Source of the DNA: Phalacrocorax aristotelis | Lineage: Eukaryota; Chordata; Aves; Suliformes; Phalacrocoracidae | NCBI RefSeq assembly: GCF_949628215.1 | Contig: NC_134310.1 | Coordinates: 9,747,401-9,811,400 of the forward strand | Direction: 5' to 3' | DNA length: 64,000 nucleotides | In this document: positions 5,041-35,349 of the stretch, one piece after another | Position numbering within the stretch: the stretch's first letter is position 1 | Layout of the letters: the number at the start of each line of letters is the position of its first letter | Notes under the pieces: model-generated | Told to the model about the DNA's origin: nothing | The model's database searches: none | What the model saw: only the letters and a program-made list of their open reading frames with translations | Position numbers and translations under genes: made by a program

Positions 5041-5790
5041 TTAAATCAATAATATTCCATTATATAAATTTAGTGTTTGGTTCATCCTCTCAGTTGTCCC
5101 ACTTGATTGTGGTCTCCAGGGGGTATGTACGTCCCATTTTATACCCAAAATTTTACTAATTTGTTGGACTACATCTGCCACAAAATGTGGTCCTCTATCA
5201 GAGGACATTCCCATTGGCACCCCAAACCTTGGTATTATTTCCTTCAGCAATATTTTAACTTCTCTAGCTTTGTTGGTGAGGCAAGGGAAAGCCTCTGCCC
5301 ATCCAGGATATTTATCAATCAGCAGTAACAAATAACTATATCCATTTTGTCTGGGTAACTCAGAAAAATTAATTTGCAAATAATCTCCGGGAGAATTTCC
5401 TTGTTTTGTTACTCCTAAAGGTGGCTTCTTTTGGTTCAGGGGATTATTTCTAGGACAGATTGGACACTTAGCTACTATGGATTTAACTATTCTTGTCATG
5501 CCTACACACACTACAGATGTTATTAAACTTGAAACCATAGCATCTACAACCCAGTGTGTTTGCTCATGCTTTTCTTTTGCAAGTTCTGTCATAACTTGCG
5601 GGGTTATTACCTGTTTTTCTGGCGTTACCCACCATCCTTCTGTATTTTGTGATGCTTCCTATAGTTCTGCTAATTGCTCATCCAATTTATTATATCTTGG
5701 TTTCAAGTTTGGAATTTTTACCTGTTTTACTGGTACTAGTGCAAGGATACCTTGTTCTGCAGCCTCCTTTGCAGCTTTAGCTGCCAATCG
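5041..5790 (-). pseudogene. pol: ERV-1 pol: integrase remnant
   Basis: Minus-strand frames give a gammaretrovirus-like integrase. The zinc-binding part shows HEQTH (HX3H) and CPIC (CX2C). The catalytic core shows SSDRGPHF and SSGTTERMN, matching the second Asp and the Glu of the D,D-35-E triad. The position of the first Asp reads QINFSEL, that is Asn in place of the usual Asp. The C-terminal domain is missing and the frame ends soon after the Glu region. A TAG stop interrupts the linker near 5658. The protein would not be functional. Upstream, a solo LTR at 5797-6046 separates it from RNase H. Confidence 0.85.
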
Positions 5791-6504: not shown

Positions 6505-7868
6505 GCAGGCAATCATGTTCTAAATTTCCTGTTGGATTTTCTGCTGACAAGAACATTGCTGGATTAACAATTTCTGTGGTTTTAATTCTACATCATCTTG
6601 TTCCAATAAGACAACCTGATATTTCAGCATTCTACTGGGGGATAACCAATGACCCCCCTTTTGCTCTAAGACAGTTATTACCATGTGTGGTACATATACC
6701 ACCATTTTTTGACCCATGGTCAGTTTTCGAGCTTCTTGGATCAGCAACATTCTTGCTGCCACAGCACACAAACATCCCGGCCATCCTTTACTCACATTAT
6801 CAAGTTGTTTGGAAAAGTATCCCACCGGCCGCCTCCAGGATCCCAACCATTGTGCCAGCATTCCAAGGGCCAGATGTTGCCTTTCATGTACAAACAACTC
6901 AAAAGGTTTGGTCAGATCAGGTAAACCCAGTGCAGGGGCCCTCATTAGTGCCTTTTTAAGTTCTTTGAATGATTTCTGACACTCAGGTGTCCAAGTCAGA
7001 TACCGATCTTTAGATTCTCTTAAAGCTTCATATAGTGGCTTCACATACAGTCCATAGTTCAGAATCCAGAGTCGACACCATCCAATCATCCCCAGAAAAG
7101 CTCTCAGTTTCTTCGGGCTACTAGGTTCGAGACTTTGACAAATAGCTTCTTTCCTTTCATTTCCTAATTGTCTTTGTCCTTGGGATATCTCAAATCCCAA
7201 ATAAGTAACTGCTTCTTTTCCTACTTGGGCTTTGTTTCTGGAAACTCTGTATCCTCCTTGGCCCAGAAAATTTAATAAGCTGATAGTAATTTCAGAACAT
7301 TTTTCTTTACTTTCTGCCGCTATCAGAATGTCATCCACATACTGTAACAATATGCCTCTCCCTTGGTTCTGTTTTTTCCATATCTCTAATTCTTTTGCCA
7401 GCTGATTCCCAAATATCGTAGGACTATTTTTGAATCCTTGTGGAAGTACAGTCCATGTTAGCTGCATCTTTCGTCTTGTGGTGGGGCTTTCCCATTCAAA
7501 AGCAAATATGCTTTAACTTTTTATGTCCAGAGGTATGCAAAAGAAGGCATCCTTCAAATCTAGTACAGTAAAGCATTTATGCTCCTTTTTAAAGAGGTCA
7601 GTAAAGTGTACGGATTAGCCACTACTGGATGTATATCTTGGACTGTCTGATTTATAGCCTTTAAATCCTGAACTAGTTGATATTCCTTGCCTCCAGATAT
7701 CCTTACTGGCAATATAGGAGTATTATATTCTGATTCACATTCTACCAAAAGCCCATATTCTAAAAATTTTGTAATTATTCCCTCTAACTCTTTTCAAACC
7801 TCCCACTTAATAGGATATTGTTTTTGTCTTACCGGCTTGGCTCCAGTTTTTAATGTTACTTTTACCGG
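6505..7868 (-). pseudogene. pol: ERV-1 pol: reverse transcriptase
   Basis: Minus-strand frames show the RT in order: QYPIKWEV and a KELEGIITKFLEYG-like entry, [44 protein letters not shown], and LQYVDDILIA with the catalytic YVDD. A connection region follows (LRAFLGMIGWCRLWI, GYFSKQLD). Stops or shifts occur near 7510 and 7800. The order and motifs are those of gammaretroviral Pol. ERV-6 at 53290-58803 carries a close relative. Confidence 0.87.
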
Positions 7869-8340: not shown

Positions 8341-9203
8341 TCCTTCATGCCAAGCTACTTCAAGCATTTTACCCAAAACTCTAGGTTCGGGTCCTTCCAA
8401 TTTCTGAAGTTTCTTTCTAATATCTGGTACTGATTGTCCCATGGATATAGAGGCTAATTGTATTGCTGCTTCTGTTTTTTCTGGGTCCAAATTAGTATAT
8501 TTTTCTGGCAGTCAACTTCAGTCTTTCCATAAAGGCTGAAGGGGACTCATTTAATTCTTGTCTCACTTCATAAATTTTTGACCAATTTATTGCTTTTGGC
8601 ATTGCATGTCTTACTCCAAATAAATCCACCTCTGATATCTAGTCAACATTCTCCTGGGTCCCAGTTGATTAGGGTCCCACTCGGGATTTGTAGATGGAAA
8701 ATTCTGATCCACTGTCCCCTGTAAATTCCCATTAGCATGTGCTCCCTGCACCTGCCTTCTGGCTGTATTCAATACCATTTTCTTGTCAGTTTCATCAAGC
8801 AAAGTATCCAATATCACAAGTAGAACAACACTTTTTCAAGTTCTCACCACATTTTCCTCTCTTCAAAACCATTGCCATAGAATTTTGTGGACATATCCCT
8901 CACTGTTTCTGCCACTCTGGATGATTCCACAGTGTAAAGAACAAATCAACATATGCCACTTCCTCCCATTTGCCTTCCCTTTTTACAAAACAACATTAAC
9001 TGCAAGATGGCATTATATTGCAATGTCTCATTTTCTGGCCATTTCTCCCCACCTTCCAACTGATACATTGGCCACCAATGATTACAATATTCAATTAATT
9101 GTTTCCAAGTTAAAGGATCACCCCCTAGATCTTTCCAATGTCTTAAGATACATCCCAAAGCTGTCTTTTGTGGGATGGGTTTCTTGCTCGGAAAAGTTCC
9201 CAT
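8341..9203 (-). pseudogene. gag: ERV-1 gag (matrix and capsid)
   Basis: The minus-strand start at 9203 gives MGTF, a glycine at position 2 as needed for N-myristoylation. Matrix follows with LGCILRHWKDLGGDPL, IEYCNHWWPMYQL, KWPENETLQYNAILQLMLF, a typical gammaretroviral matrix fold signature. Capsid words are LDETDKKMVLNTARRQV, NPEWDPNQLGPRR and RKKLQKLEGPEP near the end. The matching part of ERV-6 gag lies at 53500-53810. The frame is broken several times and the nucleocapsid is not visible. Confidence 0.82.
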
Positions 9204-9558
9204 CTTCCCAAGAGACTAGTGGTTGTGATCGTGCACTATCACAGGCACTAGTCAGAGGGACCCCAACCCCTGTTGAAGCTCCCTCTGGGATTCCAGCCCC
9301 CTGCTGGAAATCCCAACCTCCTTACACCTGTGGAGACTCTAACCCCTTGGGGACTTGAACCCTTTATCCTTGCCTGGGATCCTAGCCCAACCCTGCGAGG
9401 CTTTTGCCGCGTCTTATAGGCAGGCGTTACCTGTGGGGACTTGAACCCCGTTGAGGTAACTCTCAGCCCTACTCTGCGTAGCTTTCGCTGCATCTTATAA
9501 GCAGGCTGGTGGGACTTGAACCCACGTTCCATTAACCCCTTAAAAGAATGCCTTGTTA
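9204..9558 (-). promoter_or_regulatory. ERV-1 leader with tandem T-arm-like hairpins
   Basis: This is the untranslated leader between primer site and gag, split from its other half (15971-16104) by ERVL-A. About 75-80 bp is tandemly repeated (roughly 9373-9449 and 9462-9525). Three places read GGTTCAAGTCCC on the minus strand: 9509-9525 (GTGGG/CCCAC stem with a 7-nt loop), 9435-9449 (GGGG/CCCC stem, closed further by GTTACCT/AGGTAAC at 9426-9432 and 9454-9460), and 9349-9362. Each unit also has a small hairpin, AGC-GAAA-GCT in one and GGC-AAAA-GCC in the other. No complete tRNA is present. Confidence 0.65.
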
Positions 9559-9563
9559 CCTTT

Positions 9564-10036
9564 TGTGCTGGTTTTGGCTGAGAAGGGATTAATTCTCCTC
9601 ACTGTGGGGGGTCGGCTACCTTTCCAGCTTCCCGCGCTCTGCTGCGTGGCGGGGGGGGGGGGCTGGGAGGGGCAGGGCCATGGTGGGGCGGCTGACCCTG
9701 ACTGGCCAATGGCAGGTTCATTCCATAACATGGGACACCATGACCAGTATATTGAGGGGGGGCAGTGGCAGCGGGGGGCGCGGCGCGGTGTGGCGCGTGC
9801 GGTTCGTTTCGGCGGTTCGTTCCCCCTCTCCCCTCCCTTCCCCCCTCCCCCGGGGCTTTGCGTCTCTCGTTGTTCTCCTTTACATTGCATTTCTATTGTT
9901 GTTTCTTTTAATTTTAATTATTAAACGGTTCTTATCCCAACCCACGAGCATTACCCTTCTCATTCTCTACCCCATCTACCGGTGGGGGCGTGAGCGAGCG
10001 ACTGTGTGGGGTTGAGCTGCCGGCTAAACTACGACA
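9564..10036 (+). repeat. ERVL-A 5' LTR
   Basis: 473 bp, TGTGCTGGTTTTGGCTGAG to AAACTACGACA. The core holds CCAATGGCAGGTTCATTCC and CAGTATATTGAG as a weak TATA-like word, and ATTATTAAACGG as an ATTAAA-type poly(A) signal near 9919. The end region carries a GC-rich inverted repeat around CCGGTGGGGGC. It is the promoter and terminator module of the provirus. Confidence 0.9.
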
Positions 10037-10043
10037 GTCTTTT

Positions 10044-10061
10044 TGGTGCCCAACGTGGGGG
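10044..10061 (+). promoter_or_regulatory. ERVL-A primer binding site (tRNA-Lys1,2 type)
   Basis: TGGTGCCCAACGTGGGGG begins 7 bases after the LTR end. It differs from the canonical tRNA-Lys1,2 complement TGGCGCCCAACGTGGGGC by two bases. The same site is exact in ERVL-C at 33229. Confidence 0.85.
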
Positions 10062-10101
10062 TCAAGGGTTGGAGATAATAACAGCTGCTGGTCACAGCAC
10101 C

Positions 10102-11970
10102 ATGTTGTCCTTTTTTGCAGTTGGTGTTAAAAATCGGTGTTGGTTTGTTGAGTCTGCTGTGTTCTGCTGTGATTAGTAATGTTTTGCCTAAGAGATTTCT
10201 TATAGAAACACAGGTTTTCAGCTTTATCTGGTATTTGGGGTTTTTGCTGAAACCGTTACTGTACTTCGGATACCACCTTGTTGAGGCAATTAGCAATTAT
10301 ACCTCCTCTTCTGAGAGATTTTATATGGAGGAAATACAGAATAGTACCTTTGCAACTTTGTTCTATGATGTCTGTGCCTTTGTTACAACAACGTTTTTGT
10401 ATCTTGAGCATCCTTGGGTGGTTAAGGTGCACTTATTGTTAGTTTTTGGGCATGTTGTTTTGGTTTTGACTAAGCAACTTAAGAATATCACCCAGAAATC
10501 TGCCCCGAGGCTTGATAGTTACGAGTGGCAGGGCATGTGGGATAGCATGGGCAAATACCTAGGGCAGTGGGCACCCCCAGTGTTTTGGAGTTTCACCCCC
10601 GAACAAGTGCAGAATCCTAAAAAACTAGTACAATATTTGGAGAAAGTATGTTGTTATGCTGGGAACTCCAGAGAGACACAGATAACTGCAACATGCTGGG
10701 GCCTGGCCCATGCATACCGAGCCCTGCTCAACAGTATTCAGTGCCCCCAGGGGGAAGAGAATGTCTCTGGATTGAAATGCAAAGTGACAGGCACTGTAGA
10801 CAATCCAGCCCTGACAACAAGCACTGCAGCCACTCAAACCCCCACAACAAGTACCGGAGCTAGCTCAGAAAATAAACCCGTACCAGTATCAGTTGCCCCC
10901 ATACACAAGACGAAATATTGGAAGCAGACGTCAAGTCGTTTATAACGGGATGATGAAGAACCAGGGCCATCGCAGGGAGAGGAGGGAGAAGTAATAAATG
11001 GAATAGAGACCACCCGATCCCTGTCCTTAAGCGAGTTGCAAGATATGCGAAAAGATTATAGCCGTCGTTCAGGTGAGCACATTGCCACCTGGCTGCTCCG
11101 ATGCTGGGATAATGGGGCCAGTAGCCTGGAATTAGAGGGAAAAGAAGCCAAACAACTGGGATCCCTTTCTGGGGAAGGGGGCGTTGACAAAGCAATTGGA
11201 AAAAACCACAAGCCCTCAGCCTCTGGAGGCGACTCCTGTCTGGAGTGAAGGAAAGGTATCCCTTTAAAGAAGATGTTACATATCGCCCAGGAAAATGGAC
11301 AACTATGGAGAAAGGCATCCAGTATCTAAGGGAATTAGCTGTGCTTGAGGTGATTTATGGTGACCTGGACGATCAACGGTCATCCAAAGATCCATATGAA
11401 GCCGAGTGCACACGACCCATGTGGCGGAAGTTTGTACGGAGCGCACCATCTTCGCATGCAAACTCATTGGCAGTGATGTCCTGGAAAGATGACGAGACAC
11501 CAACGGTGGCAGAGGTGATTGATAGACTCCGGGACTACGACACAAATATCTCTTCCTCGCTTGTCTCTGCTGTGGAGAAACTATCCCAAGAGGTCCAGCA
11601 ACTCAAAGAAGATCTGCCCTACTCCCCACCTCGACAGAGTAGTGTCTCAGCTGTTAGGAATAAGCGTCCTTTGGCTCAAAGGTGGGGATACACACCACGG
11701 GCCACCCTATGGTTCTACCTGCATGACCACGGAGAGGACATGAGGAGGTGGGACGGCAAGCCTACTTCGACCCTACAGGCACGAGTACATGAACTGCAAG
11801 GAAGAACAGTCACTCAGGGAGGCTCTTCCAGGAAAGCTGCTGCACCAGTTTCCAGCAATCAAGTCCCGAAACAGAGGAGTAGAAGCGCAGATTTTATTTC
11901 TAAGTGTAATAGAGGGACTTTTGATTCACATTTACAGGAAGTGAGTTGTGACTGCCATGATGAGGACTAG
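10102..11970 (+). pseudogene. gag: ERVL-A gag with hydrophobic N-terminal domain
   Basis: The likely start is the ATG at 10102 in an ACCATG context, shared with ERVL-C and ERVL-D; an extra T in the T-run at 10111-10116 shifts the frame here. The N-terminal ~120 residues hold about four hydrophobic stretches (for example IGVGLLSLLCSAVI, FSFIWYLGFLLKPLLYF, VHLLLVFGHVVLVLT) and sequons NYT and NST. Then comes a capsid-like part (WAPPVFWSFTPEQVQNP, ITATCWGLAHAYRALL), a Thr/Ala/Pro linker, a basic patch, and SELQ...HIATWLLRCWDNGASSL with KERYPFKEDVTYRPGKW. Breaks: TAA at 10943-10945 and a one-base loss near 11205. The last segment 11245-11970 is open and ends in UAG. Confidence 0.8.
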
Positions 11971-12045
11971 AGGGGCCCTGCCTCCAGCCGGGTGGAGGAA
12001 AGGGATAACTGGGCTTACTGGACTGTGTGGATCCGATGGCCTGGC
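11968..12045 (+). promoter_or_regulatory. gag-pol UAG codon with potential pseudoknot
   Basis: Gag ends GAC TAG (11968-11970) and pro-pol continues in the same frame. Ten bases later CCTCCA (11981-11986) can pair with TGGAGG (11993-11998) around the loop GCCGGG. The loop can pair with CCTGGC at 12040-12045, one pair being G-U. The same layout occurs at 35347-35424 and 61553-61631. The context GAC-UAG-(A/G)GG recalls the gammaretroviral readthrough site. This suggests stop-codon suppression rather than frameshifting; structure and activity are inferred. Confidence 0.65.
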
Positions 12046-15000
12046 ACGTCCGACCCACAGGAGTATAAAGCTTTAGTGGACACTGGCGCACAGTGCACCT
12101 TAATGCCATCAAACTATATAGGGGCAGAACACATCAGCATTGCTGGAGTGACAGGGGGATCCCAAGAGCTAACTGTATTGGAGGCCGAAGTGAGCCTAAC
12201 TGGCAATGAGTGGCAGAAGCACCCCATTGTGACTGGCCCAGAGACTCCATGCATCCTTGGCATGGACTACCTCAGGAGAGGGTATTTCAAGAACCCAAAA
12301 TGTTACAAGTGGGCTTTTGGTGTAGCTGCCTTGGAGAAAGAGGAAATTAAACAGCTGTCTACCTTGCCCAGTCTCTCAAAGAACCCTTCTGTTGTGGGGT
12401 TGCTGAAGGTCAAAGAACAGCAGGTGCCAATCGCCACCACAACAGTGCACCAGCGGCAATATCGCACCAACAGAGACTCCCTGATTCCCATCCATAAACT
12501 CATTCACCAACTGAGGAACCAAGGAGTCATCAGTAAGACCCACTCACACTTTAACAGTCCCATATGGCCAGTGCGGAAGTCTAATGGAGAGTGGAGACTA
12601 ACAGTAGACTATCGTGGCCTGAATGAAGTCACTCCACCATTGAGTGCTGCTGTGCCAGACATGCTAGAACTCAAATACGAACTGGAGTCAAAGGCAGCCA
12701 AGCTGCATGCCACAACTGATATCGCTAATGCATTCTTCTCAATCCCTCTGGCAGCAGAGTGCAGGCCACAGTTCGCTTTCACTTGGAGGGGCGTCCAGTA
12801 CACCTGGAATCGACTGCCCCAGGGGTGGAAACACAGTCCTACCATTTGCCATGGACTGATTCAGACTGTACTGGAACAGGGAGAAGCTCCAGAACACCTT
12901 CAATACATTGATGACATCATTGTGTGGGGCAACTCAGCAGAAGAAGTTTTTGAGAAAGGAGAGAAAATAGTCCAAATCCTTCTGAAAGCTGGTTTTGCCA
13001 TAAAACAAAGTAAAGGCGAAGGGACCCGCACGAGAAATCCAGTTCTTAGGAATCAAATGGCAAGATGGTCGTCGTCAGATTCCAATGGATGTGATCAACG
13101 AAATAGCAGCCATGTCTCCACCAACTAGCAAAAAGGAAACACAAGCTTTCTTGGGCGTTGTGGGTTTTTGGAGAATGCATATTCCCAATTACAGTCTGAT
13201 CATAAGCCCTCTCTATCAAGTGACCCGGAAAAAGAATGATTTCAAATGGGGCCCTGAGCAACAACAAGCCTTTGACCAGATTAAACGGGAAATAGTTCAT
13301 GCAGTAGGCCTTGGGCCAGTCCGGGCAGGACAAGATGTAAAAAATGTGCTCTGCACTGCAGCCGGGGAGAATGGCCCTACCTGGAGCCTCTGCAGAAGGC
13401 ACCAGGGGAGACCCGAGGTCGACCCCTAGGGTTTTGGAGTCAGGGATACAGAGGGTCCAAAGCCCGCTATACTCCAACTGAAAAAGATATATTGGCAGCA
13501 TATGAAGGGGTTTGAGCTGCTTCAGAAGTGGTTGGTACTGAGGCACAGCTGCTCCTGGCACCCCGACTGCCAGTGCTGGGCTGGATGTTCAAAGGAAACG
13601 TCCCCTCTACACACCATGCAACTGATGCTACGTGGAGTAAATGGGTTGCACTGATCACCCAGCGGGCTCGAGTAGGAAACCCCAGTCGCCCAGCAATCTT
13701 GGAAGTGATTATGGACTGGCCAGAAGGCAAAGATTTTGGAATATCACCAGAGGAGGAGGTGACACATGCTGAAGAAGGTCCACTATATAACAAACTGTCA
13801 GAAGATGAAAAGCAGTATGCCCTGTTCACTGTCACAGAAAGTGCTTAAGGAGAAGGTGAATCGAGCCAGTTTGCAGAGGTAAAGGCCATCCAAATGGCCT
13901 TAGACATTGCTGAATGGGAAACGTGACCAGCGCTCTATCTTTATACTGACTCCTGGATGGTGGCAAATGCCCTGTGGGGCTGGCTACAGCAGTGGAAGCA
14001 AAGCAACTGGCAGCGCAGAGGCAAACCCATCTGGGCTGCCACATTGTGGCAAGCTATTGCTGCCCGGGTAGAGAACCTGGTCATGTGGATGCTCACGTCC
14101 CCAAGAGTTGGGCCACTGAAGAACATCGAACCAACCAGCATGTAGGTCAGGCTGCCAAGATTGAAGTGGCTGAGGTGGATCTGGACTGGCAACATAAGGG
14201 TGAACTATTTCTAGCTCGGTGGGCCCATGACACCTCAGGCCATCAAGGGAGAGATGCAACATACAGGTGGGCTTGTGACTGAGGGGTGGACTTGACCATG
14301 GATATTATTGCACAGGTTATCCACGAATGTGACACATGTGCTGCAATCAAGCAAGCGAAGCGGGTAAAGCCTCTGTGGTATGGGGGACGATGGCTGAAAT
14401 ATAAATATGGGGAGGCCTGGCAAATTGACTATATCACACTCCCACAGACCCGCCAAGGCAAGAGCCATGTCCTTACAATGGTAGAAACAACGACTGGCTG
14501 GCTGGAAACATATTCTGTCCCCCACGCCACTGCCCGGAACACTATCCTGGGTCTTGAGAAACAAGTCCTGTGGCGACATGGCACCCCAGAGAGAATTGAG
14601 TCAGACAATGGGACTCATTTCCGAAATAGCCTCATAGACACCTGGGCCAAAGAGCATGGCATTGAGTGGGTGCATCACATCCCCTGTCACGCACTAGCCT
14701 CTGGGAAAATTGAATGGTACAATGGACTGTTAAAAACTACACTGAGAGCAATGGGGGGGTGGAACATTCAAGCACTGGGATACACATTTAGCGAAAGCCA
14801 CGTGGTTAGTCAACACAAGGGGATCTGCCAACCGAGCTGGTCCTGCCCAGTCAGAAATCCTACATACTGTGGAAGGGGATAGAGTCCCTGTAGTGCACAC
14901 AAAAACTATGCTGGGCAAAACAGTCTGGGTGCTTCCTGCCTCAGGCAAAGGCAAACCCATTCGTGGGATTGCTTTTGCTCGAGGACCTGGGTGCACTTGG

Positions 15001-15075
15001 TGGGTGATGCGGGAGGATGGAGAAATCCCGTGTGTGCCTAAAGGGGATTTGATTTTGGGTGAAAACAGTCAATGA
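11971..15075 (+). pseudogene. pol: ERVL-A pro-pol (protease, RT, RNase H, integrase)
   Basis: Protease active site LVDTG at 12073-12087. RT shows IPIHKLIHQL, SPIWPVRKSNGEWRLTVDYRGL, LPQGWKHSPTICHGL and YIDD at 12904-12915. RNase H is damaged: against ERVL-C, a stretch holding the first catalytic Asp (TDGS) is deleted near 13830. Integrase shows an HX4H/CX2C zinc site (CDTC), QIDYITL, ESDNGTHF and SGKIEWYNG with 35 residues between Asp and Glu. Breaks: an extra base near 13018, a base lost near 13391, TGA near 13513, the RNase H deletion, TGA at 14280-14282. The frame ends with CTWWVMREDG and ILGENSQ. Two of these lesions are shared with ERVL-C. Confidence 0.9.
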
Positions 15076-15479
15076 ACTGAATGGCATAATGTGAACTGCT
15101 ATATAATACTGTGTGTCACCTCTGTGTTGTATCAATGATATCAGAGTACAAGCCTCCCAACCCATGGAAGATAAACTATGAAACAAGCCGTGCAGCAGTG
15201 ATGGAACGGTGACTGACTCGGTATGTAGCAACCCAACGCCACACACCATCTCTCCCACCCTGAAAGACTGATACAACAGATGGAGCCCAGAGTCATGGAC
15301 TGGGTGAACTCAATGGACATTTTAATGGGCATTTTACAGGGAAGGTCCCTGAACTAAGGGAATGATGTCTGTGTATTATGTTAAAGGATGGGAAGGGGAG
15401 GGGTGGTGGTTGGTAGGGTTGTATTGCATCATATGGGACCTGGGCATGGTGTAAATGGTATGGAATAAGGGGTGGAGAA
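15076..15479 (+). other. ERVL-A 3' untranslated region with polypurine tract
   Basis: About 400 bp without a reading frame separate the pol stop from the 3' LTR. There is no space for env. AAGGGGTGGAGAA at 15467-15479, directly before the LTR, is the polypurine tract; ERVL-C has AAGGGGTGGATAC in the same place. Confidence 0.75.
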
Positions 15480-15965
15480 TGTGCTGGTTTTGGCTGAGAA
15501 GGGGTTAATTCTCCTCACTGTGGGGGTCGGCTACCTTTCCAGCTTCCCGCACTCTGCCGCGTGGCAGGGGGGGCTGGGAGGGGCAGGGCCATGGTGGGGG
15601 CGGCTCACCCCGACTGGCCAATGGCAGGTTCATTCCATACCATGTGACACCATGACCAATATATTGAGGGGGGGCAGTGGCAGCGCGGAGGCGGTGCGGT
15701 GTCGGGTCGGTGAGCGGCTGCGGCGCGTGCGGTTTGTTTCGGCGGTTCGTTCCCCCTCTCCCCTCCCTTCCCCCTCCCCCGGGGCTTTGCGCCTCTCATT
15801 GTTCTCCTTTACATTGCATTTCTACTGTTGTTTCTTTTAATTTTAATTATTAAACTGTTCTTATCCCAACCCACGAGCATTACCCTTCTGATTCTCTCCC
15901 CCATCTACCGGTGGGGGAGTGAGCGAGCGACTGTGTGGGGCTGAGCTGCCGGCTAAACTACGACA
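15480..15965 (+). repeat. ERVL-A 3' LTR
   Basis: 486 bp, TGTGCTGG to CTACGACA, followed by the duplicated CCTTT. It matches the 5' LTR with scattered substitutions and a few indels, mainly in the G-runs and the GCGG-rich centre. The long G-run of the 5' LTR (about 13 G) is shorter here. Confidence 0.9.
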
Positions 15966-15970
15966 CCTTT

Positions 15971-16104
15971 CCAGGGGACTTGCTTGGAATTCTTTGGTCT
16001 GGGGATCAGAGGTTCCCCCTGAGAATCCCTCGGTGCTGGCTGGAAGTCCCGTGATCCGTATCCATTGAAATTCACAAGCGGAGTCCCATCTGGGTCACCA
16101 AAAC
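15971..16104 (-). promoter_or_regulatory. ERV-1 leader (proximal) with tRNA-Arg primer site
   Basis: On the minus strand, four bases after the 5' LTR end, comes TGGTGACCCAGATGGGAC (16083-16100). This is complementary to the 3' end of a tRNA-Arg, whose last bases as I recall them are GTCCCATCTGGGTCGCCA, with one mismatch. The rest is the first part of the leader, cut by ERVL-A at 15970. Confidence 0.7.
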
Positions 16105-33327: not shown

Positions 33328-35349
33328 ATGCTGACTGTAAAGCATATGTTAAAAATTGGTGTTGTTTTTTATAGTTTTCTGTGCTCTGCAATGATTAGAG
33401 ATGTTTTGCCTAGGAACACTGGCCTTGAGCTTTATTGGTTATTTGGGTCTTGCATGGAAGCTGTTACTGTACTTCAGCTAGCAACTCATGGAGGCAATTA
33501 GCAATTATACCTCCTCCTCTGAGAAGTTTTTTATGGAGGAAATACAGAATGGCACCATAGCTACCATCGTATATAATGTCTCCTCCTTCATTACAACAAC
33601 TTTTCAGTATCTTGAACATCCTTGGGTAGTCAAGATACATCTGGTGATATTGCTTTGGCAGATGGTATCAGATCTGTCTAAGGTTAGTAAGCAAGTTAAG
33701 AATATAATCCCATAATATAATCTGTCCCAAGGCTCGATAGCTATGCATGGCAGGGTATGTGGGATAGTATGGGCAAATGCCTAAGACGGTGGGCACCCCC
33801 CGTGGTGTGGGACTTCACCCCTGAACAAGTGCAGAATCCTGAAAAATTAGTAGAACATTTGGAGGAAGTATGTTGTCACCCTGGAAATTCCAGAGAGCTA
33901 CAAATCACTGCAATGTGCTGGGGCCTGGCTTATGCCTATTGAGCCCTATTTAACACTATTCAGTACCCCCAAGGGAAAGAGAAGGGAGATACTCAAACCC
34001 CCACGACAGACACTGCAGCTACTCCAACCCCAGTGACAAGCACTGCGGCCACCCAACCCCCCACGACAGACACTGCAGCTACTCCAACCCCAGTGACAAG
34101 CACTGCGGCCACCCAACCCCCCACGACAGATACTGCCGCTACTCCAACCCCAGTGACAAGCACTGCGGCCACTCAAACCCTCACGACAGATACTGCAGCT
34201 GCTCCAACCCCAGTGCCAAGCATTGCAGCTAAACCAGAGGACCAACCTGTGCCAGTATCAGTCGCCCCTATACACAAGAAGAAATCATGGAAGAGAAGGT
34301 CAACTCGTTTAGAAAGAGATTACGAGGAACCAGGGCCATCACGAGACGAGGAGGAGGAAGAGGAAGAATGTGTACAAGAAACAGAAACTACCCGATCCCT
34401 ATCCTTGAGTGAGTTGCAGGATATACGGAAAGATTTCGGGCGTCATTCAGGTGAGCATGTTATCACCTGGCTGCTCCGATGCCGGGATAATGGGGCCAGT
34501 AGTTTGGAATTAGAGGGGAAGGAAGCCAAACAACTGGGATCCCTCTCTAGGGAAGGGGGCATTGATAAAGCAATTGGAAAAGGAACACAAGCCCTCAGCC
34601 TCTGGAGGCGGCTCCTGTCCGTGGTGAGAGAGAGGTATCCCTTCAAAGAAGATATTGTATTTCGCCTAGGAAAATGGATGACCGTGGAGAAAGGCATTAG
34701 GCATCTAAGGGAATTAGCCGTGCTTGAGGTGGTTTATGGTAACCTGGATGATCAACAGTCCTCCAAAGATCCAGATGAAGCCGAGTGCACACGACCCATG
34801 CAGTAGAAGTTTGTATGGAGCGCACCATCCTCGTATGCAAACTCATTGGCAGTGATGTCCTGGAAAGATGACAAGCCACCAATGGTGGCTGAGTTGATTG
34901 ATAAACTCCGTGAATATGAAGCGAAACTCTCTTCCTCGCTCATCTCTGCTGTTGAGAAACTGTCCCGCGGGGTCCAGCAACTCAAAGAAGATAGGTCCTG
35001 CTCCCCACCAGTATGGACCAGTATCTCAGCCATTAGGAGTAAGCATCCCTTGGCTCAAGAGAAGGGATACACACGATGGGGCACCCTATGGTTCTACCTG
35101 TGTGATCACGGAGAGGACATGAAAAAGTGGGATGGAAAACCTACCTCAGCCTTAGAGGCACAGATACGTGAGCTGCAAGGCAGAACAATTACTCAGGGGA
35201 GTTTCTCCAGGAGAGCTGCTGCTCCAGTTTCCCGTAAGCAATTCTCCAGACAGAGGAGCAGAAGTGCTGATGTCCTGACTGAGCCTAACAGAGACATCCG
35301 TGATTCATATTTACCGGAAGTGAGTGATGAATACTATGATCAGGACTAG
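33328..35349 (+). pseudogene. gag: ERVL-C gag with hydrophobic N-terminal domain and VNTR
   Basis: The ATG at 33328 lies in CACCATG. The N-terminal part repeats the layout of ERVL-A: hydrophobic segments around IGVVFYSFLCSAMI, ELYWLFGSCMEAVTVLQL, a sequon-rich stretch (NYT, NGT, NVS), and VVKIHLVILLWQMV. Then come WAPPVVWDFTPEQVQNPEKL and ITAMCWGLAYAY, a 20-residue tandem repeat, a basic patch (KKKSWKRRSTRL), an acidic run of Glu, and the capsid-like ELQDIRKDFGRHSGEHVITW with LLSVVRERYPFKEDIVFRLG. Breaks: a shift near 33490, stops near 33713, TGA at about 33940, TAG at 34804-34806 where relatives have a sense codon. The final UAG at 35347 is the conserved gag stop. Confidence 0.82.
33991..34230 (+). 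repeat. Four 60-bp tandem repeats in gag
   Basis: Exactly four units of 60 bp, built on CCACGACAGAYACTGC and CCAACCCCAGTGACAAGCAC. The unit length is a multiple of three, giving 20 residues rich in Thr, Ala and Pro per unit. The first three are nearly identical. ERVL-A has about one and a half degenerate units at 10815-10860. Confidence 0.92.

Follow-up and report, generated by a model that had tools for sequence, protein, structure and literature searches.

The minus strand of the window (the whole 64-kb stretch of DNA that was analysed) contains a decayed provirus, in whose open frames 6523-7467 and 5044-5592 there are domains of reverse transcriptase, RNase H and integrase. A younger provirus is nested in its leader and divides it in two; the LTRs of this younger provirus lie at about 9564-10036 and 15480-15965, and it is flanked by the two copies of a duplicated CCTTT (15966-15970 and 9559-9563). 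When the flanks are joined, the distance from the primer binding site (PBS) to just beyond the gag start is 495 nt, and an array of small hairpins occupies part of this leader (Table 1). The open frame of the gag start had no match in a Pfam search, and neither the gag start nor the leader patterns had relatives in the viral and prokaryote collections that we searched. Three matches to the PBS pattern in viral contigs showed no signs of a retroviral leader when read and were discarded. We also rejected a coding role for the array. An arginine-rich frame runs through it on the minus strand (9248-9532, 94 aa from the ATG, 116 codons from stop to stop); the length of the 116-codon stretch is within chance (333 of 4000 shuffles), and a homologue search with the 94-aa frame returned 10 candidates, none at E 10. 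Elsewhere in the window, a tandem repeat of 30 or 60 bp in plus-strand proviruses overlaps open frames (33990-34226 and 10787-10851).

Table 1. Positions of the leader features and of the adjoining gag start in the window
Feature	Position	Strand	Remark
Primer binding site (PBS), tRNA-Arg(CCG)-like, TGGTGACCCAGATGGGAC	16083-16100	minus	17/18 to the presumed tRNA-Arg(CCG) 3' end
Leader, 5' part, up to the nested insertion	15971-16100	minus	flanks join at the duplicated CCTTT
Nested younger provirus splitting the leader	9564-15965	plus	LTR pair 90% identical; RT domain in 11992-13125
Leader, 3' part, carrying the hairpin array	9204-9563	minus	host-genome matches
Unit 1 T-loop hairpin, GTGGG-TTCAAGT-CCCAC, residue 3 at 9518	9509-9525	minus	5 bp, 7-nt loop
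Unit 1 follow-on stem-loop with GAAA-capped hairpin	9464-9508	minus	fold; counts at pair 187-229
Altered copy GAGTTACCTC of the family palindrome, candidate dimer initiation site	9453-9462	minus	GAGGTACCTC in relatives
Unit 2 T-loop hairpin, residue 3 at 9443	9434-9450	minus	hairpin probability 0.93
Unit 3 T-loop-like element, residue 3 at 9357	9348-9364	minus	3 bp in the window copy
Unit 4 T-loop-like element, loop TTAGAGT, residue 3 at 9340	9331-9347	minus	decayed fourth copy
gag start, 85-aa open frame, then stop	8946-9203	minus	6 homologous predicted proteins, best E 1.2e-38

The motif GGTTCAAGTCCC is found three times without mismatch on the minus strand (9511-9522, 9436-9447 and 9350-9361), at spacings of 75 and 86 bp, while the seven remaining matches in the 64-kb window each carry two mismatches. 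The leader thus holds the three-element tandem repeat of the original prediction, and the first element is indeed the canonical T-arm described there, with a 5-bp GTGGG/CCCAC stem and a 7-nt loop. Element 2 has 4 bp and is enclosed by a further stem, GTTACCT/AGGTAAC. Element 3 has little tendency to fold as a T-arm (hairpin probability 0 to 0.11); its unit has 4 bp in several relatives. When the leader was shuffled 20000 times with its dinucleotides kept, a canonical 5-bp T-arm arose in 14 shuffles and a 4-bp one in 31, and elements 1 and 2 are the only places in the window, on both strands, where the core GTTCRANYC stands on at least 4 bp. Rfam aligned element 1 with the T-arm of tmRNA (E 0.018) and element 2 with that of mascRNA (E 4.5), weak scores that in both cases fall far short of the gathering score. 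Unlike tmRNA, mascRNA and the plant-virus tRNA-like structures, the leader array has no whole tRNA fold, and ARAGORN finds no whole tRNA in the window.

To compare copies of the family, the host genome (1.28 Gb) was searched with the leader 3' part, which gave at least 52 match rows, the window's own included, with 40 of the 705 candidates scored. Thirty-five stretches were taken, leaving out repeated places at C35:25.2 and 25.3 Mb and at C7:30.33 and 30.35 Mb. With a query from a sister subfamily, of whose 712 candidates 40 were scored, at least 50 rows were obtained, 40 of which covered nearly the full length; 30 loci were taken from this search, and the five among them that duplicated earlier loci were removed. 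The final set, including the window, comprises 61 sequences, 28 from the main group and 33 from the sister subfamily. The repeats recur across these leaders of an old retrovirus family, with 1 to 7 hairpins per copy, and the same leaders hold further hairpins with unrelated loops, e.g. CTAGGGT and GAGAGCT. Sister leaders (e.g. L048 and L060) also have, upstream of unit 1, a GGATA pentamer repeat of variable length and a second GTGGG/CCCAC hairpin.

The PBS was proposed to match the tRNA-Arg family, and this holds beyond the window copy: 13 of the 61 copies match the presumed tRNA-Arg(CCG) primer site at 18/18, and 24 of 61 have an exact TGG[TC]GACCCAGATGGGAC. The tRNA gene behind a published PCR primer labelled pre-tRNALeu is, we assume, that of tRNA-Arg(CCG). 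This primer, in the extract of PMC7393169 where it is printed, shares 20 letters with the PBS having C at position 4. Nine copies (L044, L051, L059 and L070-L075) carry TGGCACCCCAGATGGGAC at the PBS. It has two mismatches to both the Arg-CCG and the Arg-CCT primer sites as we take them to be, and possibly represents drift between Arg isoacceptors.

We then searched the genome regardless of the loop, with GTGGG, 3 to 12 free bases and CCCAC plus flank as the pattern, exact stems only. This gave 53 exact matches, and the reversed control gave none; on reading, 46 were judged to belong to the family and 7 look unrelated, counts that do not represent independent events because some matches are tandem copies. 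By loop, the 46 family matches divide into 40 UUNRA, 4 CAAGG, 1 TCCGAGT and 1 GTTTGAGT. Residue 3 of the UUNRA loops is A in 14, T in 13, C in 9 and G in 4. We rejected the tRNA-type description, a TTCRANY loop with C56 kept: UUCRA accounts for 9 of the 46 matches, the TCCGAGT match is not of tRNA pattern, and unit 1 of the first 36 copies has the canonical tRNA loop in 14, a C56-to-T change in 7 and another or no loop in 15. Counted by copy, UUNRA on at least 3 bp is found in 43 of 61 and UUCRA in 12 of 61. According to an extract of PMC4810234, residues 1 and 5 of a T-loop pair, residues 2-4 form a U-turn and residue 3 is unstacked, and the T-loop consensus of T-boxes is given as UGxRA in the excerpted part of PMC7583486. 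U-U-N-R-A closed by a Watson-Crick pair describes 40 of the 46 matches and 43 of the 61 copies, and the family pattern, judged by its loops, fits the general T-loop rule rather than the tRNA rule.

The rates of change point in the same direction. On approximate trees built without the hairpin concerned, from copies that may recombine, residue 3 (tRNA position 56) was the most-changed of the seven loop positions in every one of the four units, with 15 changes by parsimony in unit 1 (99th percentile; 550 columns, 61 copies), 13 in unit 2 (100th percentile; 605 columns, 28 copies) and the 96th and 90th percentiles in units 3 and 4 (28 copies), these percentiles being ranks and not p-values. Residue 3 is thus free in sequence, at or above the 90th percentile of changes in all four units. 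Its transversions, 11 in unit 2 and 4 in unit 1 of the 33 sister copies, are in each case the maximum, and since so many of its changes are transversions, CpG decay is not their cause in these two sets. In unit 1 of the main group every residue-3 change is C/T, and here CpG decay may be the explanation. Residue 4 changed 10 times in unit 1, from purine to purine (61 copies). Residue 5 (A58) changed 1, 1, 4 and 0 times in units 1 to 4 of the main group, and U54 and U55 of unit 1 changed 4 times each; the changes at unit 3 A58 and at unit 1 U54/U55 came partly through lineages without a T-loop. One such lineage, a sister lineage, keeps GTGGG/CCCAC and has CAAGG in place of the T-loop (4 of 46 matches). 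G59 and U60, which are free positions of a T-loop, are largely kept too.

No clear pairing partner of residue 3 was found across the columns. For unit 4, one column complements residue 3 in a fraction of 0.90 of the 48 copies compared, but the mutual information is low (0.30). Units 2 and 3 agree at residue 3 in 10 of 19 copies (6.2 expected) and units 2 and 4 in 10 of 17 (5.5 expected); for units 1-2 and 3-4 agreement is not clearly above expectation. This is no more than suggestive of sequence exchange between units.

The stems gave a less uniform picture. Covariation of the T-arm stem had been anticipated, but the stem of unit 1 has no two-sided compensatory change in the family copies. In the follow-on stem, AGCC/GGCT became GGCC/GGCC in the sister subfamily, a two-sided change that may be a single event; pair 187-229 of this stem is A-U in 26, G-C in 7, G-U in 1 and G-A in 1 of 35 copies. 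A small hairpin in each unit had also been described as changing in a compensatory way. The difference between A-U and G-C is present in the sequence, but it looks like CpG decay: in unit 1 only one side varies (A-U 11, G-U 23 of 35 copies), in a CpG-rich stretch where such decay would have this effect. In unit 2 the pair is often broken (G-C 18, A-C 8 of 35 copies). The extra 7-bp stem around element 2 exists in the window copy, but its second pair forms in just 3 of 35 copies. Folding energy of the window repeats (z -1.5) gave no support for the fold, and four pieces of relatives, which differ in the units that they span, had z-scores of -0.7, -1.2, 0.4 and 0.2. Of the 41 copies that were folded, 23 formed hairpin 1 with P of at least 0.5.

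Between units 1 and 2, 38 of the 61 copies carry the 10-nt palindrome GAGGTACCTC, in both subfamilies, and 46 of 61 contain GGTACC. Its central GG columns, with 5 and 6 changes (79th and 84th percentile), are not specially conserved. Among leaders L012-L076, the palindrome extends in some to 12 nt, AGAGGTACCTCT. A recurring self-complementary palindrome between PBS and gag is a feature of packaging regions, and GAGGTACCTC is a candidate dimer initiation site. Because the array sits between PBS and gag together with this palindrome, we place it, presumptively, in the packaging/dimerisation region. The hairpin array and the palindrome are shared with retroviral packaging signals that have dimer-initiation palindromes. 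The loops of murine-virus packaging signals are of the GACG type, and those of the leader array differ from them. Nor are the array loops of the GGAG type described for HIV-1 in an extract of PMC7599994.

Taken together, the array is probably a structural RNA element and not a mimic of the primer tRNA. The more specific reading that we prefer, and to which we give about an even chance, is that it is a tandem series of structural T-loop hairpins within the leader's packaging/dimerisation region and not a tRNA-Arg-recruiting mimic. GC-stemmed hairpins would have been multiplied in the leader by tandem duplication, and their loops would take the general T-loop fold, with U54 and A58 closing the loop, residues 55-57 making the U-turn, residue 56 flipped out and G53-C61 capping the stem. 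Such T-loops could offer rigid sites where Gag/nucleocapsid docks or RNA-RNA contacts form during packaging and dimerisation. That some lineages, among them the window copy, resemble a tRNA T-arm would then be one state of the free position 56. With the T-loop motif of tRNA, rRNA and riboswitches (UUNRA), the array shares U1, U2, purine 4, A5 and the capping G-C, kept in most copies, and the free residue 3; it differs in being a tandem array in a retroviral leader, in the unusually fast residue 3 and in that its fold is predicted from sequence. Against the T-loop reading, a merely neutral loop site should not rank among the fastest columns of the leader. If these are true T-loops, they form a tandem array in a retroviral leader that is preserved by a loop rule rather than by tRNA identity, and the family supplies dozens of natural residue-3 variants for testing the role of T-loops in retroviral RNA. 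The comparison of copies can also tell a kept fold from a chance tRNA look-alike. Among the paper titles and abstract openings listed, none describes such an array, although this is only weak evidence that none has been published.

The array could instead consist of generic GC-rich leader hairpins that were multiplied by duplication, their T-loop look being coincidental. The variable number of hairpins (1 to 7 per copy), the unrelated loops alongside them and the weak folding z-scores speak for this. UUNRA with a free residue 3 recurs, however, in four units and two subfamilies, and we consider such a coincidence doubtful.

It is unlikely that the hairpins serve as substrates of the tRNA T-arm enzymes TRMT2A, TRUB1 and TRMT6/61A, which would convert the equivalents of U54, U55 and A58 to m5U, pseudouridine and m1A. 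All three window elements contain GUUCAAGUC, which fits 53-GUUYRANYC-61. Extracts of the relevant papers state that GUUYRANYC in a 17-base arm suffices for TruB/PUS4/TRUB1 (PMC7912444) and GUUCRA for TRMT6/61A (PMC9317671, PMC11596894); in the window copy, elements 1 and 2 present one or the other on a stem. Among the 40 UUNRA loops of the family, the 18 with A56 or G56 follow neither rule, and the 13 with U56 follow the GUUYRANYC rule only. The m1A of HIV-1 virions was located in tRNA and not in the genome, according to the extract of PMC9317671.

The interpretation first proposed for this locus, in which the elements are T-arm mimics of the primer tRNA-Arg that aid its recruitment or placement, now appears very unlikely. 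In its favour are the Arg-like PBS, the T-arm likeness beyond chance in the window leader (the 14 of 20000 shuffles given above) and the presence, in 7 of the 46 family matches, of GTGGGTTCGAGTCCCAC, identical to the arm that we take to be that of tRNA-Arg(CCT). UUNRA is kept while C56 is not, and residue 56 takes all four bases, which argues against tRNA-Arg mimicry; C56 is retained in 9 of 46 matches although the PBS remains Arg-like, and the lineage without a T-loop includes L029 and L036, which have an exact Arg PBS. The CAAGG loops and the stem of unit 1, with no two-sided compensatory change, also speak against mimicry, which is not supported. The 17-nt arm of element 1 matches the presumed Arg-CCG arm at 15/17, but two Leu arms and that of Lys-CTT, likewise assumed, match equally and the presumed Arg-CCT arm reaches 16/17. 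Its 13-nt core, GGGTTCAAGTCCC, is also the core of what we take to be tRNA-Lys(UUU) (tRNA-Lys3). Since Arg, Leu and Lys arms match equally and the core is that of Lys-UUU, the T-arm likeness is generic, and a tRNA-Arg-specific arm was rejected because element 1 is not closer to the presumed primer tRNA than to others. Two further likenesses were discarded. The D-loop octamer AATGGATA of the presumed tRNA-Arg lies 16 nt past the PBS (16059-16066, minus strand) but in the window copy alone (1 of 59), and 87 of 20000 shuffles reach this likeness; words shared with tRNA-Arg outside the T-arm were reached by 774 of 20000 shuffles for 8-mers and 1562 of 20000 for 9-mers. The 13-nt core is found within a tRNA-Lys3 construct in an extract of PMC3832253. 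The HIV-1 leader also has a tRNA-like hairpin, but what that hairpin imitates is the anticodon arm rather than the T-arm (PMC11181671, as excerpted), and it binds LysRS. We looked for an anticodon-like loop beside the PBS, as in HIV-1, and rejected this parallel: the loops of the array resemble a T-arm, lie about 150 nt downstream of the PBS and do not retain tRNA identity.

T-box riboswitches, RNase P and the L1 stalk likewise have several T-loops in a single RNA, in the form of interdigitated double T-loops. Those interlock and bind the tRNA elbow, a geometry that would be hypothetical for the leader array. By analogy, two or more leader T-loops might interlock and hold the arriving primer tRNA by its elbow. 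In that case the resemblance to a T-arm would have come about by convergence on the T-loop fold instead of by mimicry, and rapid change at residue 3 would mark a contact surface on which selection keeps shifting. We attach very little credence to such a clamp.

We give similarly little credence to a role of the 3' strand, AGTCCCA, in masking the PBS end TGGGACT until primer annealing releases it. The two are complementary over 7 nt, and in one fold of the window copy blocking the PBS raised hairpin 1 from 0.45 to 0.98. The effect depends on leader length, however, as hairpin 1 reached 0.95 with the PBS unblocked when the leader was 15 nt shorter. The masking pairing attained P of at least 0.3 in 2 of 41 copies, and although most of the sister copies listed have C directly behind the PBS, A58 stays A (60 of 61). 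Least of all do we believe in DNA-level B-boxes that bind TFIIIC. All three window elements match the B-box pattern GWTCRANNC, but the A-box pattern TRGYNNANNNG has no match in the leader, and TTCRA of unit 1 is kept in only 9 of 46 matches, with the stem beyond the box conserved.

Finally, the window's contig C35 (31 Mb of the 1279-Mb genome) holds 26 of the 46 family matches and looks like a repeat refuge, e.g. a female-limited sex chromosome. Sister leaders lie about 10 kb apart at C35:187720-217860, C28:269137-279279 and C139:163603-174169, as if whole proviruses had been amplified in tandem.
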